The notes beneath the pieces are model-generated. The model searched no databases, had not been told where the DNA came from, and saw only the letters and a list, made by a program, of their open reading frames with translations. This document shows, piece by piece, positions 1,835 through 19,624 of a DNA stretch of 64,000 bases (positions are counted from its first letter, which is position 1; each line of letters opens with the position of its first letter). The DNA lies in NCBI RefSeq assembly GCF_000422405.1, contig NZ_AULS01000001.1, positions 186,001-250,000 on the forward strand, given 5' to 3'. The DNA comes from Microbacterium luticocti DSM 19459. Its GTDB lineage: Bacteria > Actinomycetota > Actinomycetes > Actinomycetales > Microbacteriaceae. Position numbers and translations under genes: made by a program.

Positions 1835-1845
1835 AGGACACGCCC

Positions 1846-2771: not shown

Positions 2772-3039
2772 CGCCCGAGGGCATTCTCTTCGGCGACCCG
2801 ACTGTGCACGGGGCCTTTCGACCGGCGGGTGCGGGCCGCGTCGTCGGCCTCGCACCGGCTGGCCTGGCAGCGGGAGCCGTGCTCGCAGCAGTCGCACTGG
2901 CCTCGGCCAGAGCGGGGTCTGGCGGTCAGCTCCCGGGTCGGATTGGCATGTCGCCGGTGTTTGCCGAATACTTGTCCGGGGCCGCGGCGTGCTCCGCGGC
3001 ACTCTGGGGCCACCGAATCGAGCGGAAGGCGGGAAGGCA

Positions 3040-3588
3040 GTGCAGCGTTTCCTGAGCATCGCGCGCCGCTTCTCGCCGGTGCTCGCGGTCCTCACCGTCG
3101 CAGCTCTGCTGATGCTGCAGCCGCCGGCTCGCGCCGCTGACCATTTCTCGATGTCTGCGTCACTGGGCACCGTCGCCGCCGGTGCGGGCGCTGCCGAGAT
3201 GGCGACCGGTCATTCCCCGGCGAACAGCGCTCCCATTGTGGTCCACGGCCAGTTCTCGACCAAGAACGTCGGTGACCAGCAGGCGGCCGCGGCCGCCGAC
3301 CCCCTGTCCATGGGGACCGTGTCCTCCGGGATGGGCATGGCGTCGGGCTGCGGCGCGGACTGCGGCTCGCCGGCGAGCCCGTCCCCGGGGCCGATGGACT
3401 GCGTCGCAGCGGGCTGCCTGATCCTGCTGGTGCTGCTGGTCGGGATCGGAAGCCTGCGGCCGGCAGCCCGCGGAGGCGGCTGGTCGCTTCCGCGCCCAGC
3501 ACGGCGCACTCTCATTGAATCGTTGGTCCTCCGCTGCTGGGCTCGCCCTCCGCTGAGCCTCGCCGAGCTGTCGATCAGTCGCACCTGA
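3040..3588 (+). CDS. DUF6153-like small membrane protein (copy 1)
   Basis: Protein of 182 residues from GTG 3040, chosen for the GGCGGGAAGG ribosome site just upstream. It has an N-terminal signal or membrane segment (about residues 10-33), a Gly/Ala/Met-rich external stretch and a second hydrophobic segment (VAAGCLILLVLLVGIGS) preceded by Cys residues. It ends in PPLSLAELSISRT. That ending resembles the C-terminal signature of the actinobacterial DUF6153 family (PPDL-x-LxxLRI), whose function is not known. Two relatives lie at 5,450 and 11,125. The repeated link with copper genes suggests an envelope role in metal handling, which is an inference. Confidence 0.55.
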   Translation: MQRFLSIARRFSPVLAVLTVAALLMLQPPARAADHFSMSASLGTVAAGAGAAEMATGHSPANSAPIVVHGQFSTKNVGDQQAAAAADPLSMGTVSSGMGMASGCGADCGSPASPSPGPMDCVAAGCLILLVLLVGIGSLRPAARGGGWSLPRPARRTLIESLVLRCWARPPLSLAELSISRT

Positions 3589-3660
3589 GCCGGTCGCAGG
3601 TCCATCCGCGCCCGTTTCGGGGCAGCAGACATGCAGCCGTGGCCGTTCCCAGCCGGAGAA

Positions 3661-3697
3661 CCGGCAAGTAACCACGGACCCGGCAAGTAACCACGGA
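3661..3697. repeat. Two-copy 19-bp-period direct repeat
   Basis: The 18-base unit starting CCGGCAAGTAACCACGGA occurs at 3661-3678 and again at 3680-3697. It lies in the 285-base gap between the first DUF6153-like gene and the His-rich protein gene. No gene, clear promoter or terminator is visible in this gap otherwise. The pair could be a regulatory site or a trace of local duplication. Confidence 0.7.
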
Positions 3698-3873
3698 ACC
3701 TGTGGGCGGGTGTGCCGACCCGCGACGCTCGCGACGCCCCGGAGTCCATTCTCTGACGACTCCTTTGACAACTCGCGACGACCCCACCGGCTGGAGTTGA
3801 GCGGTCCATGCATCCTCGGCGACGTCGGGCACGTCTTCCCCGGTGGCCGTCGACCATCCCAGCTGAGAGACCC

Positions 3874-4632
3874 ATGACCAAGAACCAGAAATCATCCACT
3901 AAGTCTTCGAAATCGTTGCCATCGCAGCGCTCGACCGGCGGGCGTACGGCCAGCAGCCGGTCCGCGCGGGACCGGCTGCGGCAGATGCAGCTCCAGGAGG
4001 CCAAGGCCCGCCGGACTCGACGGCTGATCACGGGTGCCGCGATCGCCGTCGTGGTGCTGGCCGTCGCCGCCGGAGCGGTGGTCATCGCCAGCCTCCAAGG
4101 CGGAGGATCCGGCGACCCCTCCGGCGGGTCGGCCGCCGCCGCGGGGCGTCGGGACCTGCCGCCATGGTCGCTGCCCGCCAACACCTCTGACGCGGCGAAG
4201 GCCGCCGGCCTCCGAGTCGGCCCGATGGAGGGAACGGCGGCCCACTTCCACTCCCACCTCGACATCAGCGTCAACGGGCAGCCCATCGCCGTGCCGGCCA
4301 ACATCGGCGTCGACCCCGCTAGCGGCCAGATGTCGGAGCTCCACACCCACGACGAACGCGGCGTGCTGCACGTCGAGGCCCCCACCGCCGACGGCCGCTA
4401 CACCCTCGGCCAGGTCTTCACCGAGTGGCAGGTCCGCCTCGACGCCGAAGGCATCGGCGGACTGGACAACAGCAACACCGACAGCCTGCGCGCCTACGTC
4501 GACGGGAAGCGATTCCAGGGAGACCCCGCCACGATCCAGCTCACCGCCCACCGGCAGATCTCACTGGTCTACGGGCCGCGAGACGCCACCGACGACCCGG
4601 CGGCCAGCTACGCCTTCGAGCAGGGCGAGTAG
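3874..4632 (+). CDS. Membrane-anchored His-rich protein, HFHSH/HTHD family (copy 1)
   Basis: Uncharacterised protein of 252 residues from ATG 3874; an in-frame upstream start at 3808 has no support. Layout: a basic, low-complexity cytoplasmic N-terminus, one transmembrane helix at about 51-73, then an extracytoplasmic domain. The domain carries two conserved His clusters, HFHSHLD (H124, H126, H128, D130) and ELHTHDERGVLHVE (H157, H159, D160, H166). This density of His/Asp suggests a metal-binding site, probably copper given the neighbours. A paralogue lies at 11,739 with the same clusters. No enzyme activity can be assigned. Only 3 bases separate it from the thioredoxin gene downstream. Confidence 0.75.
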   Translation: MTKNQKSSTKSSKSLPSQRSTGGRTASSRSARDRLRQMQLQEAKARRTRRLITGAAIAVVVLAVAAGAVVIASLQGGGSGDPSGGSAAAAGRRDLPPWSLPANTSDAAKAAGLRVGPMEGTAAHFHSHLDISVNGQPIAVPANIGVDPASGQMSELHTHDERGVLHVEAPTADGRYTLGQVFTEWQVRLDAEGIGGLDNSNTDSLRAYVDGKRFQGDPATIQLTAHRQISLVYGPRDATDDPAASYAFEQGE

Positions 4633-4635
4633 ACG

Positions 4636-5232
4636 ATGCCAGCGAGAGGACCACAGACCGCGGCCCGGACCGTTGCGCTGGCCGCCGTCGTGCTGAGCGT
4701 GACGCTGGCCGCGGGCTGCACGAAGTCCATCGACTCCGCCTCGCCGTCGAAGGACGGCGGCTCCGCCGGGCCGGCCTCCGGTGTGCAGCTCTATCAACCC
4801 GGCCAGCGCAAGCCCGCCTCGACCGCCGGAGGGCCGGACGTCATGACCGGCGAGAACGTGACCACCGACCATCCCGGCAAGGTGGTCGTGGTCAACGTGT
4901 GGGCGTCCTGGTGCGGGCCCTGCCGCAAGGAGGCTCCCGACCTCGCCGCCGCGAGCCGTGACACGGCCAAGACGGCCCGGTTCGTCGGCCTCAACATCCG
5001 CGACGACCGCGAAGCCGCGCAGGCCTTCACCCGCGCCTTCAAGACCCCCTACCCGAGCATCTTCGACCCCGAGGGCAAGCAGCTCGTCAGGTTCTCCGGC
5101 CAGCTGTCGACCACAGCGATCCCGACCACCCTGGTGATCGACCGCGACCGGCGCAGCGCAGCCCGGATCACCGGCCCGGTCGACCGCGACACCCTCGTCG
5201 CGCTCATCACCGACACCGCCAACGGCAAATAG
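4636..5232 (+). CDS. TlpA/ResA-type thioredoxin lipoprotein (copy 1)
   Basis: Extracytoplasmic thiol-disulfide oxidoreductase of 198 residues. A lipoprotein signal peptide ends in LAAGC (lipidated Cys 28), and a thioredoxin fold carries WCGPC (C93, C96) in the AhpC-TSA/TlpA context (VVVVNVWASWCGPCRKE). A cis-Pro loop is visible (AIPTTLVID). Proteins of this type reduce cysteines of apocytochromes or copper-binding proteins outside the membrane and are re-reduced by CcdA. It follows the His-rich protein gene by 3 bases. The paralogue at 6,161 is closely similar over the whole mature domain. Confidence 0.88.
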   Translation: MPARGPQTAARTVALAAVVLSVTLAAGCTKSIDSASPSKDGGSAGPASGVQLYQPGQRKPASTAGGPDVMTGENVTTDHPGKVVVVNVWASWCGPCRKEAPDLAAASRDTAKTARFVGLNIRDDREAAQAFTRAFKTPYPSIFDPEGKQLVRFSGQLSTTAIPTTLVIDRDRRSAARITGPVDRDTLVALITDTANGK

Positions 5233-5299
5233 CCGACGCCCCGATGAGTGCCGGACGGGCAAGGGAGGTGCTGGAATCGAACGGAGGCTGGAGCCCCGG

Positions 5300-5345
5300 C
5301 GGTGAGCGGGGACATGCCCGTGGCGCTGCCGGTGGCCTTCTTCTC
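5300..5345 (+). pseudogene. Remnant of a ccdA 5' region
   Basis: About 45 bases here match the start of the intact ccdA around 6,807-6,850. Both encode SG-x-MPVALPVAF, after which this copy runs into unrelated sequence (FFSRARPDGH) and the CcdA reading frame is lost. It follows the first thioredoxin gene, just as intact ccdA follows the second. It is best read as the scar of a duplicated thioredoxin-ccdA unit whose second half was deleted. Confidence 0.7.
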
Positions 5346-5449
5346 CCGGGCACGTCCCGATGGACACCCTGCCGCTGCTCCTACACTCAGCTTGCGTTTA
5401 GCTCGGCCTCGCCGCAGCGCGACTGATTAGTCTCCATCTGAGGTACGGT

Positions 5450-5956
5450 GTGCCTGTGCGCGTGCGCCCGAGCCTGACATCCAGCCGATTCCTGGGCTGG
5501 ATCGTCGTCCTCGTCGCTGCCGTCGCAATCGTGTTCGGGGCGGCAGTCACCGTTCAATCCGGCCAGAAGTCGGCGACGCCGCATGTCGAAGCTGTCAGCC
5601 CGGCGGTGCATCGGCAAGTCCTGACCGAGGAAGGCCAAGCGGTTGATCACGGCTGGCAGACCGTGGGGGTGGCGTCCGTGTCGCCGCCTGTTCCCGCAGC
5701 CCAGGTGAGCGGCGGTTTCTCGATGACGCCGTCCTCCGGCTCCGACCACGGACCCGGCGACGGCAGCTGCCCACTTCTCGCCGCGGCATGCATGATCGCC
5801 CTGATGGTAGTCCTGGTGAGCTGGAGGCTCCGTCGACCCGGCACATCGGTGATCCGCATCCTGCCGCGGATGGCGACCCAGGTCCCGCAGGTCTCCTCCG
5901 TGCGCTACATGCCAGCGGCTCGATCTCCACTCATGTTCGGGATCAGTCTGACCTGA
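5450..5956 (+). CDS. DUF6153-like small membrane protein (copy 2)
   Basis: Protein of 168 residues from GTG 5450. It has an N-terminal membrane segment (FLGWIVVLVAAVAIVFGAA), an external linker, a second hydrophobic helix with flanking Cys (CPLLAAACMIALMVVLVSW) and a C-terminus (SPLMFGISLT) that is a weaker version of the xxLxxLRI ending in copies 1 and 3. Family assignment rests mainly on this shared layout and on position before a thioredoxin lipoprotein gene. Function unknown. Confidence 0.45.
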   Translation: MPVRVRPSLTSSRFLGWIVVLVAAVAIVFGAAVTVQSGQKSATPHVEAVSPAVHRQVLTEEGQAVDHGWQTVGVASVSPPVPAAQVSGGFSMTPSSGSDHGPGDGSCPLLAAACMIALMVVLVSWRLRRPGTSVIRILPRMATQVPQVSSVRYMPAARSPLMFGISLT

Positions 5957-6160
5957 TCGATGAAGGGGAGGCACAGCCTCTCCCGCTGCGGTTGACTTCC
6001 ATAGCGCGACCCTCTACCGCCCATGTCGCGGCGAGACGCCCGCGCTGTTCCCTGCGTGCATCGCCACGTTCAGCTGGCGCACCGTCGGCTGCCCCTTGTT
6101 CGCGCGAACCCGCTCGCGTTCGGTGTTCGGCATCGGTGTGCCCGTATTCGGAGATCCCAA

Positions 6161-6766
6161 ATGCTTCATCTCGTCAAGCCCGGCCCGGTAAAGGCCCGGC
6201 GTGTCGTTGTCGCGGCCGCCTCGGCCGCTCTTCTTCTCGTTACTTCGGCCTGCAGCACTGGTGCCGGTGCATCCCCGACTGGTGGCACCAGTCGCGGAGC
6301 AGTCCCCGATCCGGGACTGGTTCTGTTCAAGCCGTCCGACCGGCAACGAACCGCCGTTGCTGAAGGGCCCAAGGTCATGGGATCGGGGACCGCGACCACG
6401 AGGCATCCGGGCAGGGTCGTGGTGATCAATGTCTGGGCCTCTTGGTGCGGCCCCTGCCGCAAGGAGGCACCCGACCTGGCCGCTGCCAGCCGCAGCACGG
6501 ACGAGGTCGCCCGCTTCGTCGGTCTCAACATCAGGGACCAGCGCGATGCCGCGCGGGCGTTCAGCCGTGCCGTCAAGATGCCGTATCCGAGCATTTTCGA
6601 CCCCGAGGGGCAGCAGCTGGTCAAGTTCTCCGGGCAACTGTCGACCACCGCCATCCCGACAACGTTGGTGATCGACGAGCAACAGCGCAGCGCGGCCCGA
6701 ATCACGGGCCCTGTCGATCGCGACACCCTGATCCAATTGGTCAACGACACCGCCGACGGCAGGTGA
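6161..6766 (+). CDS. TlpA/ResA-type thioredoxin lipoprotein (copy 2)
   Basis: Second extracytoplasmic thioredoxin, 201 residues from ATG 6161. The longer in-frame start at 6023 would bury the signal peptide and is rejected. The lipobox is LLVTSAC (Cys 31) and the active site WCGPC (C96, C99). The mature domain is nearly the same as copy 1 (for example GPVDRDTL near the end). It lies 6 bases before ccdA, the membrane protein expected to supply it with electrons, so the pair forms a working thiol-reducing branch. Confidence 0.88.
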   Translation: MLHLVKPGPVKARRVVVAAASAALLLVTSACSTGAGASPTGGTSRGAVPDPGLVLFKPSDRQRTAVAEGPKVMGSGTATTRHPGRVVVINVWASWCGPCRKEAPDLAAASRSTDEVARFVGLNIRDQRDAARAFSRAVKMPYPSIFDPEGQQLVKFSGQLSTTAIPTTLVIDEQQRSAARITGPVDRDTLIQLVNDTADGR

Positions 6767-6772
6767 GCGGCA

Positions 6773-7540
6773 ATGCTTGATCAACTGGCCGCATGGGCGA
6801 CACAGTCGGTGAGCGGGTCGATGCCGGTGGCCCTCCCGGTCGCCTTCCTCGCCGGTTTGGTGTCGTTCTTCTCCCCCTGCGTCATCCCGCTGTTGCCTGG
6901 CTACATCTCCTACGCCACTGGCATGTCTGCCGCCGACCTCGTCGCCGGCGGCTCACGGATGCGTCTGGGACGGACCTTGATGGGCAGCAGCCTGTTCGTC
7001 GCCGGGTTCGGCGTGGTCTTCGTTGCGAGCGCGTCACTGGCCGGGCTGCTGGGCAGCAGGTTCATCACCTGGCAGGACCCGCTCACCCGCGTCATGGGCG
7101 TGATCATGATCGGGCTCGGACTGGCCTTCACTGGCCTCCTCCGCTTCGCCCAGCGCGACCTGCGACTCAGTTGGCTGCCTCGCTTCGGGCTTCTCGCGGC
7201 CCCGCTGATCGGCTTCGTGTTCGGGCTGGGCTGGACGCCGTGCATCGGGCCGACCCTCGGGGTCGTGTTGACCATGGCGATGAGTCAGGCGACCGCAGCC
7301 AAAGGGGCGTGGCTGGCCATCGCCTACACGCTCGGACTCGGCATCCCGTTCATCGCCGCGGCGATCGCGTTCAACAAGATCAGCACGGCCGCCCGCGCCC
7401 TGCGGAACCGGCAGCAGTTGATCATGCGCATCGGCGGTATCTCCATGATCATAGTCGGCCTGCTGATGGCCACCGGCCTGTGGACCAACGTGATCGGTGC
7501 GCTCCGACAATCCATCAGCGGATTCGTGACGGTGATCTGA
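6773..7540 (+). CDS. ccdA: CcdA cytochrome c biogenesis / thiol-electron transporter
   Basis: Polytopic membrane protein of 255 residues in the CcdA/DsbD-core family, which carries electrons from cytoplasmic thioredoxin to extracytoplasmic thioredoxins such as the lipoprotein upstream. Seen: about six hydrophobic helices, the first Cys in VSFFSPCVIPLLPGY (C36) and the second in GWTPCIGPTLG. These are the two redox cysteines of the family. The stop overlaps the next ATG (TGATG). Together with resB and ccsB downstream it makes a system II cytochrome c biogenesis set. Confidence 0.92.
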   Translation: MLDQLAAWATQSVSGSMPVALPVAFLAGLVSFFSPCVIPLLPGYISYATGMSAADLVAGGSRMRLGRTLMGSSLFVAGFGVVFVASASLAGLLGSRFITWQDPLTRVMGVIMIGLGLAFTGLLRFAQRDLRLSWLPRFGLLAAPLIGFVFGLGWTPCIGPTLGVVLTMAMSQATAAKGAWLAIAYTLGLGIPFIAAAIAFNKISTAARALRNRQQLIMRIGGISMIIVGLLMATGLWTNVIGALRQSISGFVTVI

Positions 7541-7848
7541 TGAAGCAACCAGGCAGCAACAGCACTCCCGAAGAACGTCGTCGAAAGCAACGCCAACGCG
7601 AGATGAACCGCCAACTGCGCGTGTGGACTCCGCGCCGCGTCGTCGGGTGGATCCTCGTCGTGCTAGCGGTGGTGATGGGCATCACGCACTGGCTCGCGCA
7701 CCTGGGATGGCGACCGATCCCACTGGCCATGGGCTGGCAGGATCTGCTGCTCGGCTACCCAGCCGCAGGCCTTCTCGCCATTGCCGGCGGGGTCGTCATC
7801 GGCGCGCGCACCCACCGGCCTGGATCCGGGAACCGTGGCCATCACTGA
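7540..7848 (+). CDS. Small two-helix membrane protein
   Basis: Unrecognised 102-residue protein whose ATG overlaps the ccdA stop (TGATG), so translation is probably coupled. It has a highly charged N-terminus (EERRRKQRQREMNRQLR) followed by two hydrophobic segments (VVGWILVVLAVVMGI and GLLAIAGGVVIGA) and a short basic tail. The position next to ccdA and before lgt suggests an accessory part of the redox or lipoprotein machinery. No family was recognised. Confidence 0.6.
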   Translation: MKQPGSNSTPEERRRKQRQREMNRQLRVWTPRRVVGWILVVLAVVMGITHWLAHLGWRPIPLAMGWQDLLLGYPAAGLLAIAGGVVIGARTHRPGSGNRGHH

Positions 7849-8079
7849 TCCCGCTCACAGATTGCCGCACCACATGTCCCGAAACCGGCACTGACAGCAA
7901 GGCAGAAGTATGCACCCCCACACGCCAACGGCAATGCCCTTGACATCGGTACGCATCCACGGGCACCGGGACACCGGGTCCGTCCGTCTTCGGACGATGC
8001 ACGACAGCGGTCCAAGCCGGCACCACGTCCTGCTCGCATGCGTGCAGGGCTGCAGCGACATCGGGGAGGCATCGGCTCA
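7849..8079. other. Intergenic region before lgt
   Basis: A 231-base gap with no convincing gene. It contains TTGACATCGGTAC at 7940-7952, nearly the same as the start of the CsoR-like site at 15,321 (TTGACATCGATAC) but without its GGGGTA half. It may be a -35 element for the lgt-lnt part of the run. No clear -10 is visible. Confidence 0.35.
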
Positions 8080-9090
8080 ATGATCGGTCACACGCTCCCG
8101 TTGTTCTTCATTCCGAGCCCTCCGTGGAGGGAATGGTTGCTGTTCGGGCGACTCCCGATCCGGGCATACGCGCTGTGCATCATCGCGGGCGTGATCATCG
8201 GCACGATCGTCGCCACCCGACGGTGGATCGCCCGAGGCGGCAGCCGCGACGCGGTCGAGACCGTCGCCCTGGTTTCGGTTCCGTTCGGCATCGTCGGAGC
8301 CCGCCTCTACCACGTGATCACCGACTACCAGCTCTACTTCGGACCGGGCCGCACCTGGTATCGAGCGTTCTTCATCTGGGACGGCGGCCTGGGCATCTGG
8401 GGCGGTGTCGCGCTCGGAGCGTTCGGCGGCTACCTGGTCGCGCGCCGACGCCGGATCAGATTCTGGGCGCTCGCCGACGCTCTCGCCCCGGGGGTGGCCA
8501 TCGCGCAGGCCGTCGGCCGACTGGGCAACTGGTTCAACCAGGAACTCTTCGGTCGGCCGAGCACCCTGCCATGGGCGCTGAAGATCGACCCGCAGTACCG
8601 GCCCGTCGGCTACGAGCAGTACGCCACCTTCCACCCGACGTTCCTGTACGAGCTGATCTGGGACGTCGCGGTGGCGATCGCGGTGATTGCGCTCGACCGT
8701 CGGTTCCGGCTGGGCCACGGCAAGGCGTTCATGCTCTACGTGATGTTCTACACCGCCGGCAGAGCATGGGTGGAGAGCCTGCGCATCGACCCCGCGCATC
8801 ACCTCGGCCCGTTCCGGCTCAACGACTACGTCTCGGGCATCGTCTTCCTGGCCGCCCTGCTCTGCTTGCTCTGGCTGCTCCGCAACAAGCCCGGCCGGGA
8901 GCTGGTCGTCGAGGGTGACCGGTCGGTCGTCGGCGAGCGGCCGGGCAGCAGAGCTGGTGAAACGCCGCCCGTCCCCGCTTCCGATTCCTTCGCTGCGTTG
9001 GACCAATCAGAGCCATCCGCGCTCGATCACCCCACCACGCCGGAGCACGACTCCGGCACAGCCGAGCGTGCCGGCGGGGGTCCGCGGTGA
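8080..9090 (+). CDS. lgt: Lgt prolipoprotein diacylglyceryl transferase
   Basis: Membrane enzyme that attaches diacylglycerol to the lipobox Cys of prolipoproteins, the first step of lipoprotein maturation. It has 336 residues from ATG 8080, supported by GGGGAGG upstream. The family signature GRLGNWFNQELFG is at residues 147-159, and the RLYHVI and PTFLYE segments also fit Lgt. The C-terminal tail after about residue 285 is polar and nonconserved. A second lgt is expected on the chromosome, so this copy is accessory. Its likely clients are the lipoprotein thioredoxins of the same cluster. The stop overlaps the lnt GTG. Confidence 0.92.
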   Translation: MIGHTLPLFFIPSPPWREWLLFGRLPIRAYALCIIAGVIIGTIVATRRWIARGGSRDAVETVALVSVPFGIVGARLYHVITDYQLYFGPGRTWYRAFFIWDGGLGIWGGVALGAFGGYLVARRRRIRFWALADALAPGVAIAQAVGRLGNWFNQELFGRPSTLPWALKIDPQYRPVGYEQYATFHPTFLYELIWDVAVAIAVIALDRRFRLGHGKAFMLYVMFYTAGRAWVESLRIDPAHHLGPFRLNDYVSGIVFLAALLCLLWLLRNKPGRELVVEGDRSVVGERPGSRAGETPPVPASDSFAALDQSEPSALDHPTTPEHDSGTAERAGGGPR

Positions 9091-11583: not shown

Positions 11584-11738
11584 CCCCACCCGCCCGGGCC
11601 ATGAGCAGGCTGCGGTGAGCCCCAGCAATTCGTCCCGCTCCTCGGCCCATCAATTGCACACCCGGCTTGATCACTGCGCGCCCGGTTGAGCAGTCAGACA
11701 AGCTCCTCAGACTCTCCAGCACGACAGGAAACAGGAAC

Positions 11739-12473
11739 GTGAATCAGAAGCGATCGAAGAACAAGCATCGACACGGTGCATCGACCAATCGCGAACCCGG
11801 ATCCGCGCGCGCCCGCGCCCGGTTGGCAGAGATGAAACGGCAGGAGGCCCGCGCCCGAACGCGGCGGCGTTTCCTGGTCGGGGTCACCGCGGTCATCGTC
11901 GCCGGTGCCCTCGGCATCGGCATTTGGCTGGTGGCCCGGCAAGTATCAGCACCCAACGCCGCTGGGCCGGTGGCCGGCACCAAGGGGCGAAGCGATCTGC
12001 CGCCGTGGGGGCTCCCGGCCGATCCGGGCCGCCTGGCCGAGGCCGCCGGTCTGCAGGCATCGAACATGGAAGGCACCGCCGCGCACTTCCACTCCCATCT
12101 GGACATCACCGTCAACGGCCAGCCGCTCGCGTTACCGGGAGCAATCGGCGTCGACGCGAAGACCGGCTCGATGTCGGAGCTGCACACCCACGACGAACGC
12201 GGCGTCCTGCACGTCGAGTCACACAAGACCGACGGCAAATACACCCTCGGACAGCTGTTCGCCGAGTGGGACGTGCGACTCGACGGCCAAGGCATCGGCG
12301 GCCTGACCAACAACAAGACCGACAGCCTGCGCGCCTACGTGGACGGCAAACCGTTCACCGGCGACCCCGCCACGATCGAACTCGGCGAGCGACGCCAGAT
12401 CTCACTGATCTACGGCCCCCGGAACGCGACCGACAATCCGCCCTCGAGCTTCGCCTTCGACGCCAATGAATGA
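11739..12473 (+). CDS. Membrane-anchored His-rich protein, HFHSH/HTHD family (copy 2)
   Basis: Paralogue of the protein at 3,874, 244 residues from GTG 11739 (ACAGGAAC upstream). Same layout: basic N-terminus, one membrane helix (FLVGVTAVIVAGALGIGIW) and an extracytoplasmic domain with HFHSHLDITVNG and HTHDERGVLHVE clusters. The C-terminal half is nearly the same as copy 1, while the N-terminal cytoplasmic parts differ. That indicates an old duplication with selection on the external domain. The stop overlaps the ATG of resB, linking it physically to cytochrome c assembly. Metal binding is inferred, not shown. Confidence 0.75.
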   Translation: MNQKRSKNKHRHGASTNREPGSARARARLAEMKRQEARARTRRRFLVGVTAVIVAGALGIGIWLVARQVSAPNAAGPVAGTKGRSDLPPWGLPADPGRLAEAAGLQASNMEGTAAHFHSHLDITVNGQPLALPGAIGVDAKTGSMSELHTHDERGVLHVESHKTDGKYTLGQLFAEWDVRLDGQGIGGLTNNKTDSLRAYVDGKPFTGDPATIELGERRQISLIYGPRNATDNPPSSFAFDANE

Positions 12474-14226
12474 TCTCCGCCCCACCAGCAGATCCGATGC
12501 CGCACCTGGCCCGCGAGCCGATCCCGACGCGGCGGGCATCGCAACCACCGAACCCGCCACTCGCAGGACTTCCTCCAATGCGCCGGTGATCGGATTCCTC
12601 GGCGGGCTGCGGTTCCTGTGGACGCAGTTGATCACCATGCGGACGGCGCTGGCGTTGCTGTTCCTGCTGGCACTGGCCGCGGTGCCCGGATCGTTGGTGC
12701 CGCAGCAGAACATATCGCCGGTGCGAGTCAAGTCCTTCCTCGACCAGCACAAGACGCTGGGACCGATCTATGACAAGGTCGGACTCTTCAACGTCTACAC
12801 CTCGCCCTGGTTCTCCGCGATCTACATCCTGCTGTTCATCAGCCTGATCGGCTGCATCATCCCCCGGGCCGGGGTCTATCTCCGGGCCGTGCGAGCACAG
12901 CCGCCCCGCACACCGCGATACCTGCATCGTCTGCCCGCCTACGCCTCCGCCGACCTGACCGCAGCCGAAGCCGGCGACAGCGCGGCCCCGACCGATGCTG
13001 CCATCCTGCGCCGGCTGCGCGACAACCTGCGAAGCAGGCGGTACCGGGTCACCCAGCACCCCGACGGGTCACTGGCGGCCGAGCGGGGCTACCTGCGAGA
13101 GGCGGGCAACCTCGCCTTCCACATCAGCCTGGTCTTCTTGCTGCTCGGCGTGGCCGTGGTCTGGCTGACCAGCTTCCGCGGCGACCGGGCGCTGGTCGTG
13201 GGAGGCGAAAGCTTCACCAATGACCTGGTGCAATACGACGACTTCAAGGCCGGCCCGCTGTTCCGGCAATCGTCTCTGACCCCCTTCAGCATCAAGGTCG
13301 ACAGCTTCGACGTGAAGTTCGAGACCGGCAACGTCCAGCGAGGGGCCGCGCGGGAGTTCAACGCCGCAGTCACTGTCACCGACCGTCCAGGAGACAAGCC
13401 CCGCCAGGAAACCTTGCGGGTCAACCATCCGCTCAACCTGGCCGGCGGCGAAAAGGTCCACCTGATCGCCTGGGGATACGCACCGATCGTGACGGTGAAG
13501 GACGGCGACGGCAACGTCGTCTCCTCCGGTCCTGTCATCTTCCTGCCGCAGGACGGCAACTTCACCTCCGCTGGGGCGATCAGTGCGCCCGACGCCAGGC
13601 CTCGCAAACTCGGCTTTGAAGGGTTCTTCCTGCCCAGCGCCTACGTGGACGGCTCCGGGCCCCGCTCGGTGTTCCCCGACGCGTTGAATCCCCAACTGTT
13701 CCTGAACGCCTGGTCGGGCAAGCCCACCGCCGAGACCGGCCAACCCCAGAGCGTCTACTCGCTCGACACCCGCGGCATGACCCAGATCATGAACCCGAAG
13801 GACCCCAAACAGCCGCTGCGGTTCATCCTCCGACCCGGATACATCCAAAAGCTGCCCAACGGGCAAGGATCCATCCAGCTGGACGGGGTGCAGCGCTGGA
13901 TCAAGATCCAGGTCGGCGACTCCCCCGGCGCACCCATCACGATCGTCGCTATCGGAACCGCCGTGCTGGGGCTCAGCTTCTCGCTGTTCATCCGGCCCCG
14001 GCGGATCTGGGCACGGATCCGACGGGTCGACGGCCACAACCTCCTCGAGATCGCCGGACTCGACCGGGCCGACGCCCGAACGGGACTCACCGAAGACGTC
14101 GAAGCCCTCGTCAACAGCCTCGACCTGCAAACGAGCTCACGCAACCAGACCCCACCCGGGCACGGGAACGAACCGGCAGAGCCTGATCCGACCACCGACA
14201 ACCAATCACCGAAGGAGACGGCATGA
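12466..14226 (+). CDS. resB: ResB cytochrome c biogenesis protein
   Basis: ResB/Ccs1 subunit of the system II haem-handling and cytochrome c synthetase complex, 586 residues. After a variable N-terminus come membrane helices (ALALLFLLALAAVPGSLVPQ, FSAIYILLFISLIGCII, FHISLVFLLLGVAVVWL), a large extracytoplasmic domain and a last helix before a polar C-terminus. The motif MRTALALLF...PGSLVPQ is typical of actinobacterial ResB. ATG 12466 overlaps the end of the His-rich protein gene, and the stop overlaps ccsB. Confidence 0.92.
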   Translation: MNDLRPTSRSDAAPGPRADPDAAGIATTEPATRRTSSNAPVIGFLGGLRFLWTQLITMRTALALLFLLALAAVPGSLVPQQNISPVRVKSFLDQHKTLGPIYDKVGLFNVYTSPWFSAIYILLFISLIGCIIPRAGVYLRAVRAQPPRTPRYLHRLPAYASADLTAAEAGDSAAPTDAAILRRLRDNLRSRRYRVTQHPDGSLAAERGYLREAGNLAFHISLVFLLLGVAVVWLTSFRGDRALVVGGESFTNDLVQYDDFKAGPLFRQSSLTPFSIKVDSFDVKFETGNVQRGAAREFNAAVTVTDRPGDKPRQETLRVNHPLNLAGGEKVHLIAWGYAPIVTVKDGDGNVVSSGPVIFLPQDGNFTSAGAISAPDARPRKLGFEGFFLPSAYVDGSGPRSVFPDALNPQLFLNAWSGKPTAETGQPQSVYSLDTRGMTQIMNPKDPKQPLRFILRPGYIQKLPNGQGSIQLDGVQRWIKIQVGDSPGAPITIVAIGTAVLGLSFSLFIRPRRIWARIRRVDGHNLLEIAGLDRADARTGLTEDVEALVNSLDLQTSSRNQTPPGHGNEPAEPDPTTDNQSPKETA

Positions 14227-15305
14227 CGATCGACTACTTCTCCAACCTCGCTCTGGTCACCGCGACCGTGATCTACGCCCTGGCCCTCACCATGCACAGC
14301 ATCGAATGGGCAGCCGCACGAAAAATTACCGCCGCCCGAAGCACCACCGGCAAGCGGAAGGGCGAGGCAGCGGACGACATCGAGACCAGAACCCGCCCCG
14401 ACGCACGCGCAACGACCAGCCGCGCATCAGAGGCCTCAGCGTCCACCCTGACGATCACCCGGACCGCCGCCCAAGCCACGCCTGACTCACCGACCCTCGA
14501 GCCCGAAGGCGACGTCGACGTCGACGATGAACCCTTTGACGGAGACCCGATTCCGCAGCAGAAGACCGAGATGTTCGGTCGGATGGGCATCTCCTTCACC
14601 CTGATCGGGCTGGCCTGCGCGATCGCAGGCATTACCGCCCGGGGCATCGCCGCTCACCGCTGGCCGCTGGGCAACATGTTCGAGTTCACCACCATGGCGA
14701 TGGTGATCATCGTCGCCGGCTACCTGGTCCTGGCCAAGATGGGGATGCGCTGGCTCGGCCTGCCCATCACCATGGTCGCCACCGTCGGCAACGGCCTGGC
14801 AGTGACCGTGTTCTACGTCGCAGTCGCCGGGTTGGTGCCGTCGCTGAACTCCTACTGGTTCATCATCCACATCACTGCCGCGACGATCAGCGGAGCAGCG
14901 TTCAACATCGGCGGAGCCATCTCGATCCTGTACCTGATCAAGAAGCGGGCCGAGGACAAGGGAACCGAGAAGGGCTACCTCCTCCGACTCCCCGATTCGC
15001 GCCGCATAGACGTGATCGCCTACCGGCTCTTCGCCTTCGCCTTCCCGCTGTGGACGTTCACCATCGCCGCCGGAGCAGTTTGGGCCGAGTACGCCTGGGG
15101 CCGCTACTGGGGATGGGACCCCAAGGAGGTCTGGGCGCTGGTCACCTGGGTGATCTTCGCCTGTTACCTCCACGCCCGATCGACCGCCGGCTGGAAGGGT
15201 GGACGGGCCGCCGTCATCGCCCTGCTCGGGCTTGCCGTCTTCTGGTTCAACTTCATCGGAGTGAACCTGCTCCTCTCCGGGCTCCACTCCTACGCAGGCA
15301 TCTAA
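14223..15305 (+). CDS. ccsB: CcsB/ResC cytochrome c biogenesis protein
   Basis: Haem-binding membrane partner of ResB, 360 residues. It carries the family's tryptophan-rich WWD-type signature (WGRYWGWDPKEVWAL) and conserved His residues in membrane helices (HRWPLGNMFEF, HITAATISG, LLSGLHSY). A long polar insert (about residues 28-110) follows the first helix, as in other actinobacterial CcsB proteins. ATG 14223 overlaps the resB stop. With CcdA and the thioredoxins it completes a system II set, although no apocytochrome gene is visible on the island. Confidence 0.93.
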   Translation: MTIDYFSNLALVTATVIYALALTMHSIEWAAARKITAARSTTGKRKGEAADDIETRTRPDARATTSRASEASASTLTITRTAAQATPDSPTLEPEGDVDVDDEPFDGDPIPQQKTEMFGRMGISFTLIGLACAIAGITARGIAAHRWPLGNMFEFTTMAMVIIVAGYLVLAKMGMRWLGLPITMVATVGNGLAVTVFYVAVAGLVPSLNSYWFIIHITAATISGAAFNIGGAISILYLIKKRAEDKGTEKGYLLRLPDSRRIDVIAYRLFAFAFPLWTFTIAAGAVWAEYAWGRYWGWDPKEVWALVTWVIFACYLHARSTAGWKGGRAAVIALLGLAVFWFNFIGVNLLLSGLHSYAGI

Positions 15306-15320
15306 CCAAGAAGCGAACGG

Positions 15321-15349
15321 TTGACATCGATACCCCTGGGGTACGACAG
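15321..15349 (+). promoter_or_regulatory. CsoR-like operator in a promoter-like context
   Basis: A consensus -35 (TTGACA, 15321-15326) is followed by the dyad TACCCC-T-GGGGTA (15331-15343), the arrangement of CsoR operators in actinobacterial copper promoters. The -10 is weak (around 15344-15349). It points rightward into a gap where the only gene, the M23 peptidase, is on the other strand. It may be the leftover promoter of a lost copper gene or a source of antisense transcript. Confidence 0.5.
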
Positions 15350-15423
15350 CGACTCAGCCGTTACCGCGGCACCACCAGCGAGCTCGACCCGTCTCAAAAC
15401 GACACCCGGCCGCTTCAGGGCCC

Positions 15424-16590
15424 CTACGGCTTCAAGCCTTTCGCAGTGAACCAAGGCAGTGGATTCACCGTCCGGTAGACATCGCCGGGAGTGACGCCAG
15501 CGGGGTACAGCTCCAGGTGTGTGTGCGGGCCGAACGTCCGGCCGGTCATGCCCACCCGGCCGATGACCTGACCGGCGGCAACCCGCTGCCCGGTGCGGAC
15601 CGCGGCCGACGCCATGTGCGCCATCAGCATCTGCTTCCCGTCGGGGAACTTGATGCTGACGTAGATGCCCGCCCAACCGCTGGCCGGACCGGTACCGCCG
15701 TTGGTGACGACCCCATCGGCTGTCGCTCTGATCGGTGTCCCGATCGGGGCAGCGAAGTCCACGCCAGTGTGATAGCGCGACCAGGATCCGACCTGCCCGA
15801 ACGTGGCGACGATGTTGTAACTTCCCTTGGCGATCGGCAATGCCCCGCCCCCGCTGCTCGTGCCGCCTGCAGTGTCTGAACTGCCGAGATCGGCAGTACC
15901 GCTGTCGGAGCCGTTGTCGCTCGATGCCGAGTCGGTCCGGCCGACCGCCGTGCTACCGGAGGATGCATTGCCCTTGCCCGCGTCAGCTTCTTGGGCCGCT
16001 CGCATCTGCTGTTGACGCTGCTCCTTGCTGAGCGTTCCCGATAGTTTGCGGCTCTTCTCGGCGTCGGATTTCAACGCCTCTGATCGTTGCCGGGCAGCCT
16101 CCTCCGCCCGCGTGTCCTCCTGGCCGGTGTCGACAACCTTGCTGTTCTTCTGGGCTGCCCGGCGCGCCGCCATGTCGACGGTGCCGTCGAGAGGCTGGCC
16201 CGTGCTCTGCTCCTCGCTACTGCCGCTGCCTTGGGTATCGCTGCGCTGACCACTGCGTGTTGCCTCCCGAAGGCCCGCGCGCGACCGGCCAGAGGTGTCG
16301 GCCCGGTGCCCGGTGGAGCCCGCGTCATCGGGCGCGCCAGCCGTACTGGAGATTCCGGTGACCGCAGGGTTCGCCTCATGGGCAACGCCGGTCATGGCGA
16401 CCGCGCCAGCGCCGGCAAGGCCGAGTCCTGCGATGGCGGCCGCGGCAATGCCGTGGCGGATCCAGCTGCGTCTGTCCCGTCCGATGTGATCCAGGGCTCG
16501 GCCAGCTCTTGCTGCGGTGCCCGCGCGCAACTCGCCGACGCGGGTTCGCAGCTGACCGAGGCTTCGCCGCTGGCGACCGTCGGGACTCAT
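15424..16590 (-). CDS. M23-family metallopeptidase, membrane-anchored
   Basis: Predicted zinc endopeptidase of the LytM/M23 type that would cleave peptidoglycan cross-bridges, 388 residues. It has an N-terminal basic cytoplasmic part, a membrane segment near residues 48-68 (GIAAAAIAGLGLAGAGAVAM), a long Ser/Gly- and Gln/Ala-rich linker with a short coiled-coil-like stretch, then the M23 domain. The zinc-site elements are present: HTGVDFAAP (HxxxD), MAHMA and GPHTHLELYP (HxH). It converges on ccsB. A role in making room for envelope complexes is possible but not shown. Confidence 0.85.
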   Translation of the reverse strand: MSPDGRQRRSLGQLRTRVGELRAGTAARAGRALDHIGRDRRSWIRHGIAAAAIAGLGLAGAGAVAMTGVAHEANPAVTGISSTAGAPDDAGSTGHRADTSGRSRAGLREATRSGQRSDTQGSGSSEEQSTGQPLDGTVDMAARRAAQKNSKVVDTGQEDTRAEEAARQRSEALKSDAEKSRKLSGTLSKEQRQQQMRAAQEADAGKGNASSGSTAVGRTDSASSDNGSDSGTADLGSSDTAGGTSSGGGALPIAKGSYNIVATFGQVGSWSRYHTGVDFAAPIGTPIRATADGVVTNGGTGPASGWAGIYVSIKFPDGKQMLMAHMASAAVRTGQRVAAGQVIGRVGMTGRTFGPHTHLELYPAGVTPGDVYRTVNPLPWFTAKGLKP

Positions 16591-16735
16591 TCGGCTAGAA
16601 CTCCTCGTGGGATGGGAATGACCGGACCGCTAGAGAATAACGGTTCGATAACATCGATGAATGCTGGCTTGGCCAGACTTGAGGAAATGCTCACGCCTTC
16701 GGTGGCGGTCAACGACCGCTCCAGGCCATGATAGG

Positions 16736-16768
16736 TCAGCCACTGCTGTATAGTTCAGTGGATGCTGA
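16736..16768 (+). promoter_or_regulatory. cmtR promoter with overlapping imperfect dyad
   Basis: TCAGCCACTG (16736-16745) and CAGTGGATGCTGA (16756-16768) form an imperfect inverted repeat around a -10 hexamer TATAGT (16749-16754). The start codon ATG 16762 lies inside the right arm, about 8 bases after the -10, and no ribosome site is visible, so cmtR may be translated from a leaderless mRNA. The dyad is the obvious CmtR operator candidate. Confidence 0.55.
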
Positions 16769-17130
16769 CCATTGCTTCGCGCCTTGACGTCATGAACCGG
16801 CTCGGCCGGGCGATGGCGGACCCGACGCGCTCCCGGATCCTGATGTCCTTGCTCGGCGGCCCGAGCCACCCGGCCGTGCTGTCGCGCGAGCTCGACCTGA
16901 CGCGCTCGAACGTGTCGAACCACCTGACCTGCCTGCGCGACTGCGGGATCGTGGTCGCCGAGCCGCACGGCCGGCAGACCCGCTACGAGATCGCCGACCC
17001 GCACCTGGCCGCGGCGCTGACGACGCTGGTGGACGTGACGCTGGCGGTGGACGAGAGCGCGCCGTGCATCGACCCGCACTGCTCGGTGCCGGGCTGCTGC
17101 GCCGTGACCGGCTCGGGGGACGCCTCGTGA
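16762..17130 (+). CDS. cmtR: CmtR-type Cd/Pb-sensing ArsR-family repressor
   Basis: Winged-helix repressor of 122 residues. The three metal ligands known for mycobacterial CmtR are at the same positions: C57 and C61 in the recognition-helix segment NHLTCLRDCG, and C102 in the C-terminal tail (APCIDPHC). The start of the protein (MLTIASRLDVMNRLGRAMADPTRSRIL) also follows CmtR. Extra cysteines C107, C112 and C113 in the tail are unusual. Cd(II) or Pb(II) binding would release the repressor from its promoter and switch on the ATPase gene, whose start overlaps the cmtR stop. Confidence 0.92.
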   Translation: MLTIASRLDVMNRLGRAMADPTRSRILMSLLGGPSHPAVLSRELDLTRSNVSNHLTCLRDCGIVVAEPHGRQTRYEIADPHLAAALTTLVDVTLAVDESAPCIDPHCSVPGCCAVTGSGDAS

Positions 17131-19043
17131 GCGCCGCCTGCGGCTGCGACGAGCCGACCACCAGCCCATCCGAGGAGGCCGAGGAGACCGAGCGCTCGTG
17201 GTGGCGCGACCCGGGACTGGTGGTGCCGATCCTCTCCGGCGTCGCGTTCGGCACCGGCCTGGTGCTGGAGTGGTCGGGGATGCACATCGCGGCACTGGCC
17301 GCGTTCTGGGCGGGTCTGCTGCTGGGCGCGTACACGTTCGTGCCCGGCGCTCTGCAGAACCTGTTCGTCAGGCGGAAGCTGGGGATCGCGCTGCTGATGA
17401 CGATCAGCGCCGTCGGCGCGGTGATCCTCGGCTACGTGGAGGAGGCCGCCGCGCTGGCGTTCCTCTACTCGATCGCCGAGGCCCTGGAGGACAAGGCGAT
17501 GGACCGCGCCCGCGGCGGCCTGCGCGCGCTGCTGAACCTCGTGCCGGAGACCGCGACCGTGCTGCGCGACAGCGCCTCGGTCGAGATCCCGGCGAAGGAG
17601 ATCGCCGTCGGCGACGTGCTGCTGGTCCGCCCCGGCGAGCGGGTCGCGACCGACGGGCTGGTCCGCGCGGGCCGCTCCAGCCTGGACACCTCGGCGATCA
17701 CTGGCGAGTCGATCCCGGTCGAGGTCGCCCCCGATGACGCGGTCTCCGCCGGCGCGATCAACACCGCCGGTGTGCTGGAGGTCGAGGCGACCGCGGCGGG
17801 CACCGACAACTCGCTGACCACCATCGTGGAGCTGGTCGAGCAGGCCCAGGCCGAGAAGGGCGAGCGTGCGCGGATCGCCGACCGGATCGCCCGCCCGCTG
17901 GTGCCCGGGGTGATGGTCCTCGCCGTCCTGGTTGGCGTGCTCGGATCGCTGCTCGGCGACCCCGAGACCTGGATCACCCGCGCCCTGGTCGTCCTCGTCG
18001 CCGCCAGCCCGTGCGCGCTGGCGATCGCGGTGCCCGTCACCGTGGTCTCCGCGATCGGGGCGGCGACGAAGTTCGGCGTCGTCATCAAGAGCGGGGCAGC
18101 CTTCGAGCGCCTCGGTGGCATCCGCCACCTCGCCGTGGACAAGACCGGCACCCTGACCCGCAACCGGCCCGAGGTCACCGCCGTCGTCGCCGCCGACGGC
18201 TTCGACGACGCCCAGGTGCTGGCCTGGGCCGCGGCCGTGGAGCAGCACTCGACGCACCCTCTCGCCGCCGCCATCGCCACCGCGGGCCAGGGAGCCCCCG
18301 CCGCGCAGGACGTCGCCGAGGAGGCCGGGCACGGCATCGGCGGCCTGGTGGACGGCCGCCGGGTGACGGTGGGCAGCCCCCGCTGGATCGACGCGGGGCC
18401 GCTCAAGGCCCGGGTCGAGGAGCTGGAGGCCGAGGCCCAGACCTGCGTGCTCGTGGCCGTCGACGGCCGGCTGGCCGGGGCGATCGGCGTCCGCGACGAG
18501 CTGCGCCCCGAGGTCCCCGACGTCGTGCACACGCTGCGGGCCCAGGGCGTCGAGGTGAGCATGCTCACCGGCGACAACGCCCGCACCGCGCACGCGCTAG
18601 CGCAGCTCGCCGGGATCGGCGACGTGCACGCCGAGCTCCGGCCCGAGGACAAGGCCCGCATCGTCGCCCAGCTCTCCGAGGCCTCGCCCACGGCGATGAT
18701 CGGCGACGGCATCAACGACGCCCCCGCCCTGGCCGGGGCGACCGTCGGCATCGCGATGGGCGCGACCGGCTCCGACGCCGCGATCGAGTCTGCCGACGTC
18801 GCCTTCACCGGCCACGACCTCGGCCTCATCCCGCAGGCGCTGCGCCACGCCCGCCGCGGCCGGGCGATCATGAACCAGAACATCGTGCTGTCCCTGGCGA
18901 TCATCACCGTGCTGCTGCCGCTGGCCATCACCGGCGTGCTGGGCCTGGCCGCGGTCGTCCTCGTCCACGAGGTCGCCGAGGTCGTCGTCATCGCTAACGG
19001 GCTGCGCGCCGCGCGTGCCCGCAAGCCTCAGGCAGCGGGCTGA
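17127..19043 (+). CDS. ctpG: CtpG-like Cd/heavy-metal P-type ATPase
   Basis: P1B-type metal efflux ATPase, 638 residues from GTG 17127, which overlaps the cmtR stop. It has a short Cys-containing N-terminus (ACGCDEP) without a full HMA domain, the ITGES loop, an SPC transmembrane motif (residues 294-296) in place of CPC, DKTGTLT with Asp 338, and GDGINDAPA. SPC is the mark of the P1B-4 group. The last helix carries HEVAEVVVIANG. The cmtR-ctpG pairing is as in mycobacteria, but the small PacL-type gene found there between the two is absent. Substrate Cd, perhaps Pb or Zn. Confidence 0.9.
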   Translation: MSAACGCDEPTTSPSEEAEETERSWWRDPGLVVPILSGVAFGTGLVLEWSGMHIAALAAFWAGLLLGAYTFVPGALQNLFVRRKLGIALLMTISAVGAVILGYVEEAAALAFLYSIAEALEDKAMDRARGGLRALLNLVPETATVLRDSASVEIPAKEIAVGDVLLVRPGERVATDGLVRAGRSSLDTSAITGESIPVEVAPDDAVSAGAINTAGVLEVEATAAGTDNSLTTIVELVEQAQAEKGERARIADRIARPLVPGVMVLAVLVGVLGSLLGDPETWITRALVVLVAASPCALAIAVPVTVVSAIGAATKFGVVIKSGAAFERLGGIRHLAVDKTGTLTRNRPEVTAVVAADGFDDAQVLAWAAAVEQHSTHPLAAAIATAGQGAPAAQDVAEEAGHGIGGLVDGRRVTVGSPRWIDAGPLKARVEELEAEAQTCVLVAVDGRLAGAIGVRDELRPEVPDVVHTLRAQGVEVSMLTGDNARTAHALAQLAGIGDVHAELRPEDKARIVAQLSEASPTAMIGDGINDAPALAGATVGIAMGATGSDAAIESADVAFTGHDLGLIPQALRHARRGRAIMNQNIVLSLAIITVLLPLAITGVLGLAAVVLVHEVAEVVVIANGLRAARARKPQAAG

Positions 19044-19624
19044 TGCGGGCGAAGGACGCGGTCCGCGGGTCCACTGCCCGGATCGCTCATGGTCCGAGGC
19101 GGACGCTCCTGGTAGCGGGGACCTTCCTGCTCGGCGGTTTGGTCGTCCTGGTCGACCAAGGGACCAAGGCATGGGCTGAGGCCACCCTCTCGACGCAGGA
19201 GCGCATCCCGCTCGTCGGCGAGCTGCTGGGACTCCAGCTGGCGTACAACCCCGGTGCGGCGTTCTCCTTCGGCGAGGGCTCGACCTGGGTGTTCGCGCTG
19301 GTCGCTGTCGCGGCCGCGGTCGCCGCGGTCGTCTTCGCGTTCCGTGTCCGGCGTCTTCGGTGGGCGGTCGTGATCGGTGCCGTCGGCGGTGCGGCGGCCT
19401 CGCACGCCGGGGACCGGCTCTTCCGCGCCCCCGGCTTCGCCCGCGGCCACGTCGTGGACTTCCTGGCCTACGGCGACTGGTTCATCGGGAACGTCGCCGA
19501 CATCGTCATCGTCGTGGGCGCGGTCACCGGGGCGTTCCTGATGCTCCACGACGGCTCATCGCCAGAAGACTCCCCGAGTTCTTCGGCACGGCTCAGTTCC
19601 GAAGAGGCTGGCGAGCGGAGCTGA
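19043..19624 (+). CDS. lspA: LspA lipoprotein signal peptidase II
   Basis: Membrane aspartyl protease that removes the signal peptide from diacylated prolipoproteins, the second maturation step. It has 193 residues and its ATG overlaps the ATPase stop (TGATG). The catalytic Asp pair sits in HAGDRLFRAPGF (D124) and GNVADIVIV (D153), with GHVVDF between, as in LspA. The usual GGAxGN before the first Asp is altered here to GGAAASHAGD. lspA coupled to Cd/Zn ATPase genes is a known pattern on mobile metal islands. With lgt and lnt upstream it completes the lipoprotein pathway. Confidence 0.88.
   Translation: MRAKDAVRGSTARIAHGPRRTLLVAGTFLLGGLVVLVDQGTKAWAEATLSTQERIPLVGELLGLQLAYNPGAAFSFGEGSTWVFALVAVAAAVAAVVFAFRVRRLRWAVVIGAVGGAAASHAGDRLFRAPGFARGHVVDFLAYGDWFIGNVADIVIVVGAVTGAFLMLHDGSSPEDSPSSSARLSSEEAGERS

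Follow-up and report, generated by a model that had tools for sequence, protein, structure and literature searches.

Spare lipoprotein-maturation and cytochrome c-assembly genes on a predicted metal-resistance island of Microbacterium luticocti: a possible back-up for metal-blocked envelope assembly

A window of 64 kb from the genome of Microbacterium luticocti DSM 19459 (G000:C1:186001-250000; host assembly of 3.1 Mb in 27 contigs) contains a predicted metal-resistance island that encodes the lipoprotein-maturation enzymes Lgt, LspA and Lnt together with the cytochrome c-assembly proteins ResB and CcsB, the thiol transporter CcdA and two lipoprotein thioredoxins (TlpA1 and TlpA2). The genome encodes Lgt, LspA, Lnt and ResB at other sites as well, and thus the island set is an additional one. 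Judged from gene content and distribution, the island may hold these enzymes as spares, a back-up for conditions in which copper or other thiol-binding metals block both assembly lines. The probability of this reading is estimated at about one half.

In the proposed mechanism, metals would bind the free lipobox cysteine, which would stop Lgt (a block reported for E. coli), and also the CXXCH thiols of apocytochromes. A title cited in two papers names cytochrome c assembly as a copper target. TlpA and CcdA would supply reducing power and free the blocked thiols, and the extra Lgt would use up the lipobox thiol faster. After cleavage by LspA, the amino terminus thus formed would be capped by Lnt, and copper could no longer bind there. 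CsoR and ArsR would turn on the extra copies together with the pumps. The recruited enzymes are ordinary, look active, are not visibly hardened and appear to have been taken up repeatedly, a pattern that fits a larger supply of existing activities under metal stress better than a new activity.

A profile search of the genome returned one further copy each of Lgt (C1:72363), LspA (C3:118452), Lnt (C1:101994) and ResB (C2:54536), the last accompanied by its own CcsB, CcdA and TlpA. The separate housekeeping lgt, lspA and lnt genes whose existence the first-pass annotation had left open are therefore all present. The neighbourhood search showed no metal or thiol genes near the Lgt, Lnt and LspA copies outside the island (L138, L139 and L140). 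The catalytic residues are intact in both Lnt of the host genome (Glu, Lys and Cys) and in both LspA (two Asp). An inactive housekeeping Lnt was considered, as its catalytic Cys motif seemed to be missing; this was rejected after alignment, which shows Glu, Lys and Cys (AICFD versus AICFE).

The enzymes of the island are likewise well preserved. In the island Lnt, the catalytic Glu, Lys and Cys are kept in the WPE, YDK and AIC columns of the alignment, and the island LspA has both catalytic Asp (VVDF and NVAD), with a TIGR00077 score of 56.4 that lies below that profile's own cut-off of 73.95. The island Lgt contains the signatures GRLGNWFNQE (GR-x-x-N) and GRAWVESLR (C-terminal R/E), whose residues are presumably functional. 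The set for cytochrome c maturation by System II is complete, consisting of ResB, CcsB, thioredoxin and CcdA. Pfam and NCBIfam matches bear out the earlier placement of Lgt, Lnt, LspA, the two lipoprotein thioredoxins, CcdA, ResB and CcsB.

The association with metal and thiol genes recurs in other genomes. The order was sampled with 109 genomes. An Lnt domain was found in 84 of them and two Lnt matches in nine; G161 was excluded because a single gene is split there, which leaves eight. One Lnt lies beside TlpA/CcdA/ResB/CcsB genes in seven of these eight (G000, G135, G024, G178, G183, G185 and G191), and metal regulators or pumps share the stretch with these seven island Lnt (in G185 the next stretch, L149). 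None of the nine other Lnt copies of the two-Lnt genomes has TlpA/CcdA/ResB/CcsB neighbours (the stretch L099 ends at a contig end). The same holds for 15 controls chosen by hand from the 76 single-copy genomes, one of which has an ArsR-like match. With kinship between the genomes ignored, 7/8 versus 0/15 corresponds to a Fisher p of 3.3e-5. In a sample of 148 genomes of the class, at least two Lnt matches were obtained for 42. Eight of the 42 were inspected (three shared with the order sample) and such an island is present in five, namely G000, G135, G024, G089 and G127.

More than one LspA match was found in 11 of the 109 genomes. All of these except G072 have an extra copy in a metal/thiol neighbourhood (10/11), a count in which L169 (a 3-kb contig) is uninformative and the similar islands of G215 and G240 are counted twice. 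Seven of the ten neighbourhoods include TlpA/CcdA/ResB/CcsB; the weakest case is G227, where an ArsR gene alone is visible before the contig end. The other LspA copies (L172-L181 and that of the host) show no such neighbourhood (0/11), one of them having a distant MerA-like match. A second full Lgt match over the cut-off is present in 11 of the 109 genomes, after G156 and G201 had been dropped as weak or partial. Lgt thus shows a weaker metal/thiol link than LspA and Lnt, for both of which it is strong. Recurrence in other genomes, which the first-pass annotation had treated as decisive for its proposal, is thus observed on chromosomes as well as plasmids, beside copper and other metal genes.

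Overlapping sets are carried by plasmids. Rhodococcus rhodochrous BX2 has LspA-ATPase-ArsR and TlpA-TlpA-CcdA-ResB-CcsB-Lnt-M23, and Rhodococcus pRWAY03 has two Lgt-family genes, CcsB-ResB-CcdA-TlpA-TlpA-M23-Lnt and a copper-type ATPase. The conjugative plasmid 2 of Arthrobacter FB24 contains CcdA-LspA-ATPase-ArsR, ResB-CcsB-Lgt and MerA. In Mycolicibacterium chubuense pMYCCH.01, a single stretch of 31 kb includes LspA (367.6 kb), CcsB (391.7 kb), Lgt (394.5 kb, a profile match without a gene in the annotation table) and Lnt (397.0-398.7 kb). Further overlapping sets are present on Gordonia pYYC01 and on Kineococcus pKRAD01; the latter is apparently the same replicon as G183:C3 and thus not independent. 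Searches with the LspA and Lgt profiles in 10 plasmid records, which had been pre-selected for island-gene matches, detected LspA in seven and Lgt in two. The ArsR-P1B ATPase-lspA runs of actinobacterial plasmids resemble the window in that ArsR, an SPC-type ATPase and LspA follow in the same order. What the window adds is Lgt and Lnt; several of these plasmids also have cytochrome c maturation genes close by.

Comparison with Rothia kristinae NBRC 15354 (L021), which belongs to the Micrococcaceae and thus to a family other than that of the host, delimits a cassette. The flanks are nearly identical, with 93.5% DNA identity from -1052 to 5242 of the window (CopB-CsoR-CMD-HTHD1-TlpA1) and 97.5% from 16746 to 21621 (ArsR-ATPase-LspA-permease). 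Between them, the window has 11.5 kb with TlpA2, CcdA, small open reading frames, Lgt, Lnt, HTHD2, ResB, CcsB and M23, whereas R. kristinae has 3.0 kb with a different CcdA, and Lgt, Lnt, HTHD2, ResB and CcsB are absent from the 20 kb examined. The cassette ends are sharp. Its G+C content is 66-68%, compared to 70-73% on both sides (2-kb windows). Arsenicicoccus piscis (L020, Intrasporangiaceae) likewise lacks the cassette. Since two relatives are without it, a gain in the host is likelier than a loss in the relatives. The portability suggested earlier is supported by this block, present or absent between near-identical flanks, and by the mobilizable and conjugative plasmids that carry overlapping sets.

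A quickly built Lnt tree (57 rows, of which 16 are island Lnt, 30 'housekeeping' Lnt without such a neighbourhood and 11 unclassified; SH-aLRT support only) suggests that Lnt was recruited more than once. The island label requires 10 changes, nine of them forced by well-supported branches; with shuffled labels the mean is 14.0, and values as low were obtained in 3 of 500 shuffles. Several island Lnt are placed next to non-island Lnt: L105, L106 and L110, for instance, group with the chromosomal L107 of Kineococcus, and L112 and L114 are the neighbours of L010 and L115. The simplest reading, with changes being either gains or losses, is that Lnt entered such islands repeatedly. A single dedicated family of island Lnt was rejected, as the island Lnt are scattered over the tree. 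The window Lnt forms a long branch (1.77) of unsure placement; a search of 396 genomes belonging to the order gave, at E <= 1e-60, no match above 41% identity other than itself. In the LspA tree the window LspA sits in a second, small island group, and both catalytic Asp are kept in all 34 LspA rows.

The genes and sites of the island are compiled in Table 1. Gene calls are based on Pfam and NCBIfam profiles, and 27 different proteins of the window were scanned with Pfam.

Table 1. Genes, putative sites and the exchanged block of the island (window positions)
Feature	Position	Strand	Evidence and remarks
CopB-like copper P-type ATPase, CPH motif (ACPHALG)	5..1834	+	PF00122/PF00702; TIGR01511 copper ATPase above cut-off; frame opens at left edge of window
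CsoR-type copper-sensing repressor	1834..2202	+	PF02583, 99 bits
HTHD1, predicted membrane-anchored HxHxH/HTHD protein	3868..4632	+	conserved His; no Pfam match
TlpA1, lipoprotein thioredoxin	4636..5232	+	CGPC; lipobox AAGC
11.5-kb cassette	5243..16745	.	blastn of window against Rothia kristinae L021; gene map
TlpA2, lipoprotein thioredoxin	6161..6766	+	CGPC; lipobox TSAC
CcdA, thiol transporter	6773..7540	+	PF02683/PF13386; two Cys (36, 157)
Small predicted membrane protein	7540..7848	+	1-base overlap with CcdA stop; no Pfam match
Lgt, second copy	8080..9090	+	PF01790, 205 bits (cut-off 24.9); TIGR00544, 150.7 (cut-off 118.9)
Lnt, second copy	9087..10814	+	PF20154 and PF00795; TIGR00546, 211 bits (cut-off 132.9)
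Small predicted membrane protein	10811..11128	+	overlaps Lnt; no Pfam match
Small protein, weak DUF6153 likeness	11125..11583	+	PF19650, E 0.025, below cut-off
HTHD2	11667..12473	+	56% identity to HTHD1
ResB (cytochrome c maturation), second copy	12466..14226	+	PF05140, 414 bits
CcsB (cytochrome c maturation), second copy	14223..15305	+	PF01578; TIGR03144 above cut-off
CsoR-like palindrome TACCCCTGGGGTA	15331..15343	.	after TTGACA, between converging CcsB and M23; no gene to serve
M23 peptidase, recurrent neighbour in these islands	15424..16590	-	PF01551
ArsR/SmtB-type metal regulator	16762..17130	+	PF01022
P1B-type metal ATPase, SPC motif	17127..19043	+	NCBIfam; 1-base overlap with LspA
LspA, second copy	19043..19624	+	PF01252, 88.3 bits (cut-off 25)

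Overlaps of 1-8 bases connect CcdA with the following open reading frame, Lgt with Lnt, Lnt with the next frame and this frame with a small transmembrane protein, HTHD2 with ResB, ResB with CcsB, ArsR with the ATPase and the ATPase with LspA; the Lgt/Lnt and ResB/CcsB overlaps are of 4 bases each. The run of overlapping genes described in the first-pass annotation is therefore real in part, but it is not one unbroken operon. It is interrupted by 925 bp between TlpA1 and TlpA2, 231 bp before Lgt and 83 bp before HTHD2, and a gap of 1456 bp between CcsB and ArsR holds the M23 gene on the opposite strand. LspA is part of a separate ArsR-ATPase-LspA run beyond that gene, so that the three lipoprotein enzymes span at least two operons on one island.

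Regarding regulation, a CsoR-type palindrome, ATACCCCATAGGGGTAT, is located 1053 bases beyond the left end of the window, ahead of the genes of a DUF1541 lipoprotein, CopB and CsoR. It is identical in A. piscis and a close variant is present in R. kristinae, in both before the CopB-CsoR run; it is a putative CsoR-type operator. Scanning for palindromes with a spacer of two bases gave nothing relevant in the window; the form with four bases lies upstream of the window. The shorter palindrome TACCCCTGGGGTA behind CcsB is perhaps a relic of the cassette exchange junction.

The ATPase that adjoins lspA had been called a Cd/Zn pump. The adjacency is confirmed and the protein scores over the cut-off of the NCBIfam cadmium subfamily, but it carries an SPC motif and the label is accordingly uncertain. 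The motif is presumably a mark of the cobalt/iron ATPase group and not of Cd/Zn ATPases. SPC is found in the P-type ATPase directly before lspA in all six cases inspected (window, L011, L012, L016, L196 and L197).

Several observations weigh against a back-up role. Multiple Lnt without such an island are present in G157, one of the eight two-Lnt genomes of the order sample, and in three genomes of the class sample (G039, G032 and G067, the latter two of genus g23). The extra Lgt is linked to metal or thiol genes in just five of 11 genomes (G000, G024, G158, G185 and G221). The full Lgt, LspA and Lnt set occurs in one stretch only in the window and pMYCCH.01, with pRWAY03 not searched for LspA and FB24 plasmid 2 not for Lnt. 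The island of R. kristinae has neither Lgt-Lnt nor ResB-CcsB, and thus these genes are not needed for the persistence of the rest of the island. In addition, the 925-bp and 231-bp gaps separate Lgt-Lnt from the putative CsoR-controlled promoter. In the LspA tree, a single clade with full support unites 15 of the 22 island rows, which would equally suit a dedicated family. Finally, island Lnt contain 3.25 cysteines per 500 amino acids (15 proteins), compared to 2.46 in other Lnt (30 proteins). Metal-hardened island enzymes were rejected, as cysteines are not depleted in these 15 Lnt relative to the 30 others; in LspA, cysteine counts are low (0-3) in the island group and the other group.

Alternatively, the extra Lgt, LspA and Lnt might serve to mature copper-handling lipoproteins encoded on the island itself (TlpA1, TlpA2 and the DUF1541 protein) and provide a matched supply in a new host. 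This is close to the purpose first assigned to the island. A simple lipobox scan of positions 1 to 24 kb of the window identified only TlpA1 and TlpA2, besides one spurious frame, and the DUF1541 gene just upstream of the window encodes a third predicted island lipoprotein. Three such genes on one island speak for dedicated processing, as does the DUF1541 (YdhK-type) protein that adjoins copper genes with lgt in Listeria as well. However, lipoprotein enzymes of the host should accept any lipobox, and its other copies are in open frames, with the catalytic residues kept in Lnt. The host enzymes should therefore handle these few lipoproteins. Furthermore, the ResB and CcsB copies would remain unexplained, as there is no cytochrome in the window, and the island Lnt do not constitute one specialised family. 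Dedicated processing is thus considered unlikely.

Still less likely is a remodelling of the cell surface, in which full N-acylation of the lipoproteins would prevent the amine and the sulfur of the first residue from binding copper, as proposed for Lit2. The available parts of two reports are in line with it: copper binds the amino terminus of a lipopeptide (PMC8275575), and it accumulates upon depletion of Lnt (PMC7387801). Both findings also speak for the back-up reading. Lit and Lgt also occur together in copper loci of Firmicutes. Since the host has another Lnt, the chemotype would stay the same in kind, and ResB/CcsB and LspA would not be accounted for.

Core envelope genes might also have reached large plasmids and islands of actinobacteria by chance, unrelated to metals; this would fit the extra copies that lack metal/thiol neighbours (Lnt of G157, G039, G032 and G067; Lgt of G117, G171, G184, G204 and G239). 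It is rather improbable, as the same few genes recur with metal pumps and not near the other copies (7/8 versus 0/15 for Lnt and 10/11 versus 0/11 for LspA) and as Lnt seems to have entered repeatedly.

CXXCH occurs only once in the window, in a frame judged spurious (34536-35150), and no c-type cytochrome is encoded with the System II set. Neither a cytochrome c nor a haem-copper oxidase was found among the 27 scanned proteins. With no cytochrome c in the window, ResB and CcsB would act on host cytochromes, and the metallation function considered in the first-pass annotation receives no support. That the thiol and haem machinery builds one specific copper-detoxifying redox protein is the least probable of all, since no plausible window gene has a CXXCH motif, although CtaD, SURF1 or cytochrome oxidase assembly proteins are present in some islands (Kocuria, Paenarthrobacter and Kineococcus).

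Among known systems, the lit2-lgt2 operon, which is copper-inducible and occurs in Listeria monocytogenes and on mobile elements of Enterococcus (Armbruster et al. 2019, via PMC7387801 and PMC8275575), is most similar to the spare set proposed as a back-up. In both, an additional lgt and an enzyme for the N-acylation of lipoproteins are located by copper-resistance genes (in the Firmicutes on plasmids or transposons), and the Listeria copper locus and the window island each have a DUF1541 protein nearby. As in lit2/lgt2-type loci, the second Lgt of the window lies inside a copper-resistance locus. According to the accessible portions of these reports, lit2 is copper-induced and found on mobile elements (PMC7387801) and is co-transcribed with lgt2 (PMC8275575). 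Lgt adjoins Lit (PF07314) and copper genes on both plasmids inspected, pOB050226 and plasmid 2 of E. faecium E8927. The lit2-lgt2 operon uses Lit, which acts intramolecularly, whereas the window has a classical Lnt together with LspA, TlpA-CcdA-ResB-CcsB and CsoR/ArsR. No Lit-family enzyme (PF07314) was found among the 27 scanned proteins; Lnt is in its place. All four components of System II (ResA/CcdA/ResB/CcsB) are represented in the window, but, unlike the usual System II, as an additional copy beside metal pumps without a cytochrome gene. Accordingly, the known kind is the Firmicute lgt2/lit2 copper locus, and the window is a larger actinobacterial variant with Lnt, LspA and a cytochrome c set. 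In the plasmid collection, a relative of Lgt is present on 199 Enterococcus and 12 Listeria plasmids.

Parts of other reports bear on the targets. In E. coli, copper yields the same lipoprotein forms as depletion of Lgt (excerpts of PMC6538781 and the commentary PMC6593411). Cadmium lowers the cytochrome content of Rubrivivax, which the consulted sections ascribe to haem synthesis, a different step (PMC7283390). The genome announcement of Pseudarthrobacter AG30, as far as its available text goes, lists Lgt beside copper genes (PMC6256500). Having all three lipoprotein enzymes beside copper-linked thiol-redox lipoproteins had been regarded as an unrecognised pattern. This does not hold for a second lgt with an N-acylating enzyme, known from Firmicute copper operons, nor for the Lgt of AG30 (PMC8275575 and PMC6256500, as available). 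No description of an Lgt-LspA-Lnt and cytochrome c-assembly set in actinobacterial metal islands was found in the literature searched, most subscription papers being outside the search. Overall, the earlier interpretation is partly supported.

A broader, more tentative proposal is that mobile elements carry spare copies of poisoned targets. Thiol-dependent assembly lines of the envelope (lipoproteins, c-type cytochromes and disulfides) would then constitute a third route to metal resistance beside pumping out and detoxifying, assembled repeatedly out of genes of the hosts in Actinobacteria and in parallel, as lit2/lgt2, in Firmicutes. If so, the genes duplicated on metal islands would reveal which envelope processes are poisoned by metals. 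The long-standing question of what fails in the Gram-positive envelope under copper or cadmium would be turned into a gene list testable by deletion. It would also account for plasmid-borne lgt, lspA, lnt and cytochrome c-assembly genes, usually considered housekeeping, and two phyla would have arrived at the same solution with different N-acylating enzymes.

Some further features were noted. At L165, L166 and L171, a TlpA-CcdA-ResB-CcsB block has two different LspA genes beside it or on either side within one island. An Lnt-domain match is absent in 25 of the 109 genomes of the order sample, the listed ones belonging mostly to the family groups f2, f35 and f36; some members of the order may thus lack Lnt. 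Small predicted membrane proteins are encoded at 3031-3588, 5450-5956 and 11125-11583 of the window, the first and third of which share, by eye, the ending SLxELSIxR. Positions 19664-24479 resemble a mercury-type module, assigned mostly by eye, with an unnamed protein, an ArsP-like permease (PF03773), MerR, MerA and an organomercury-lyase-like frame. The right edge of the island is probably near 32400, where no tRNA was found; it is followed by the core genes rnc, mutM, ddl, gpsA, murA, leuCD, gltX and leuB (by eye).

The HTHD family comprises 128 proteins at E <= 0.001 and has no Pfam entry. At 78 other loci with an HTHD gene (L019-L097), a BlaI/CopY-type regulator is nearby in 22 and an M56 peptidase in 16. 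The predicted model of HTHD weakly resembles a small putative metal-binding protein (pdb entry 3u7z).

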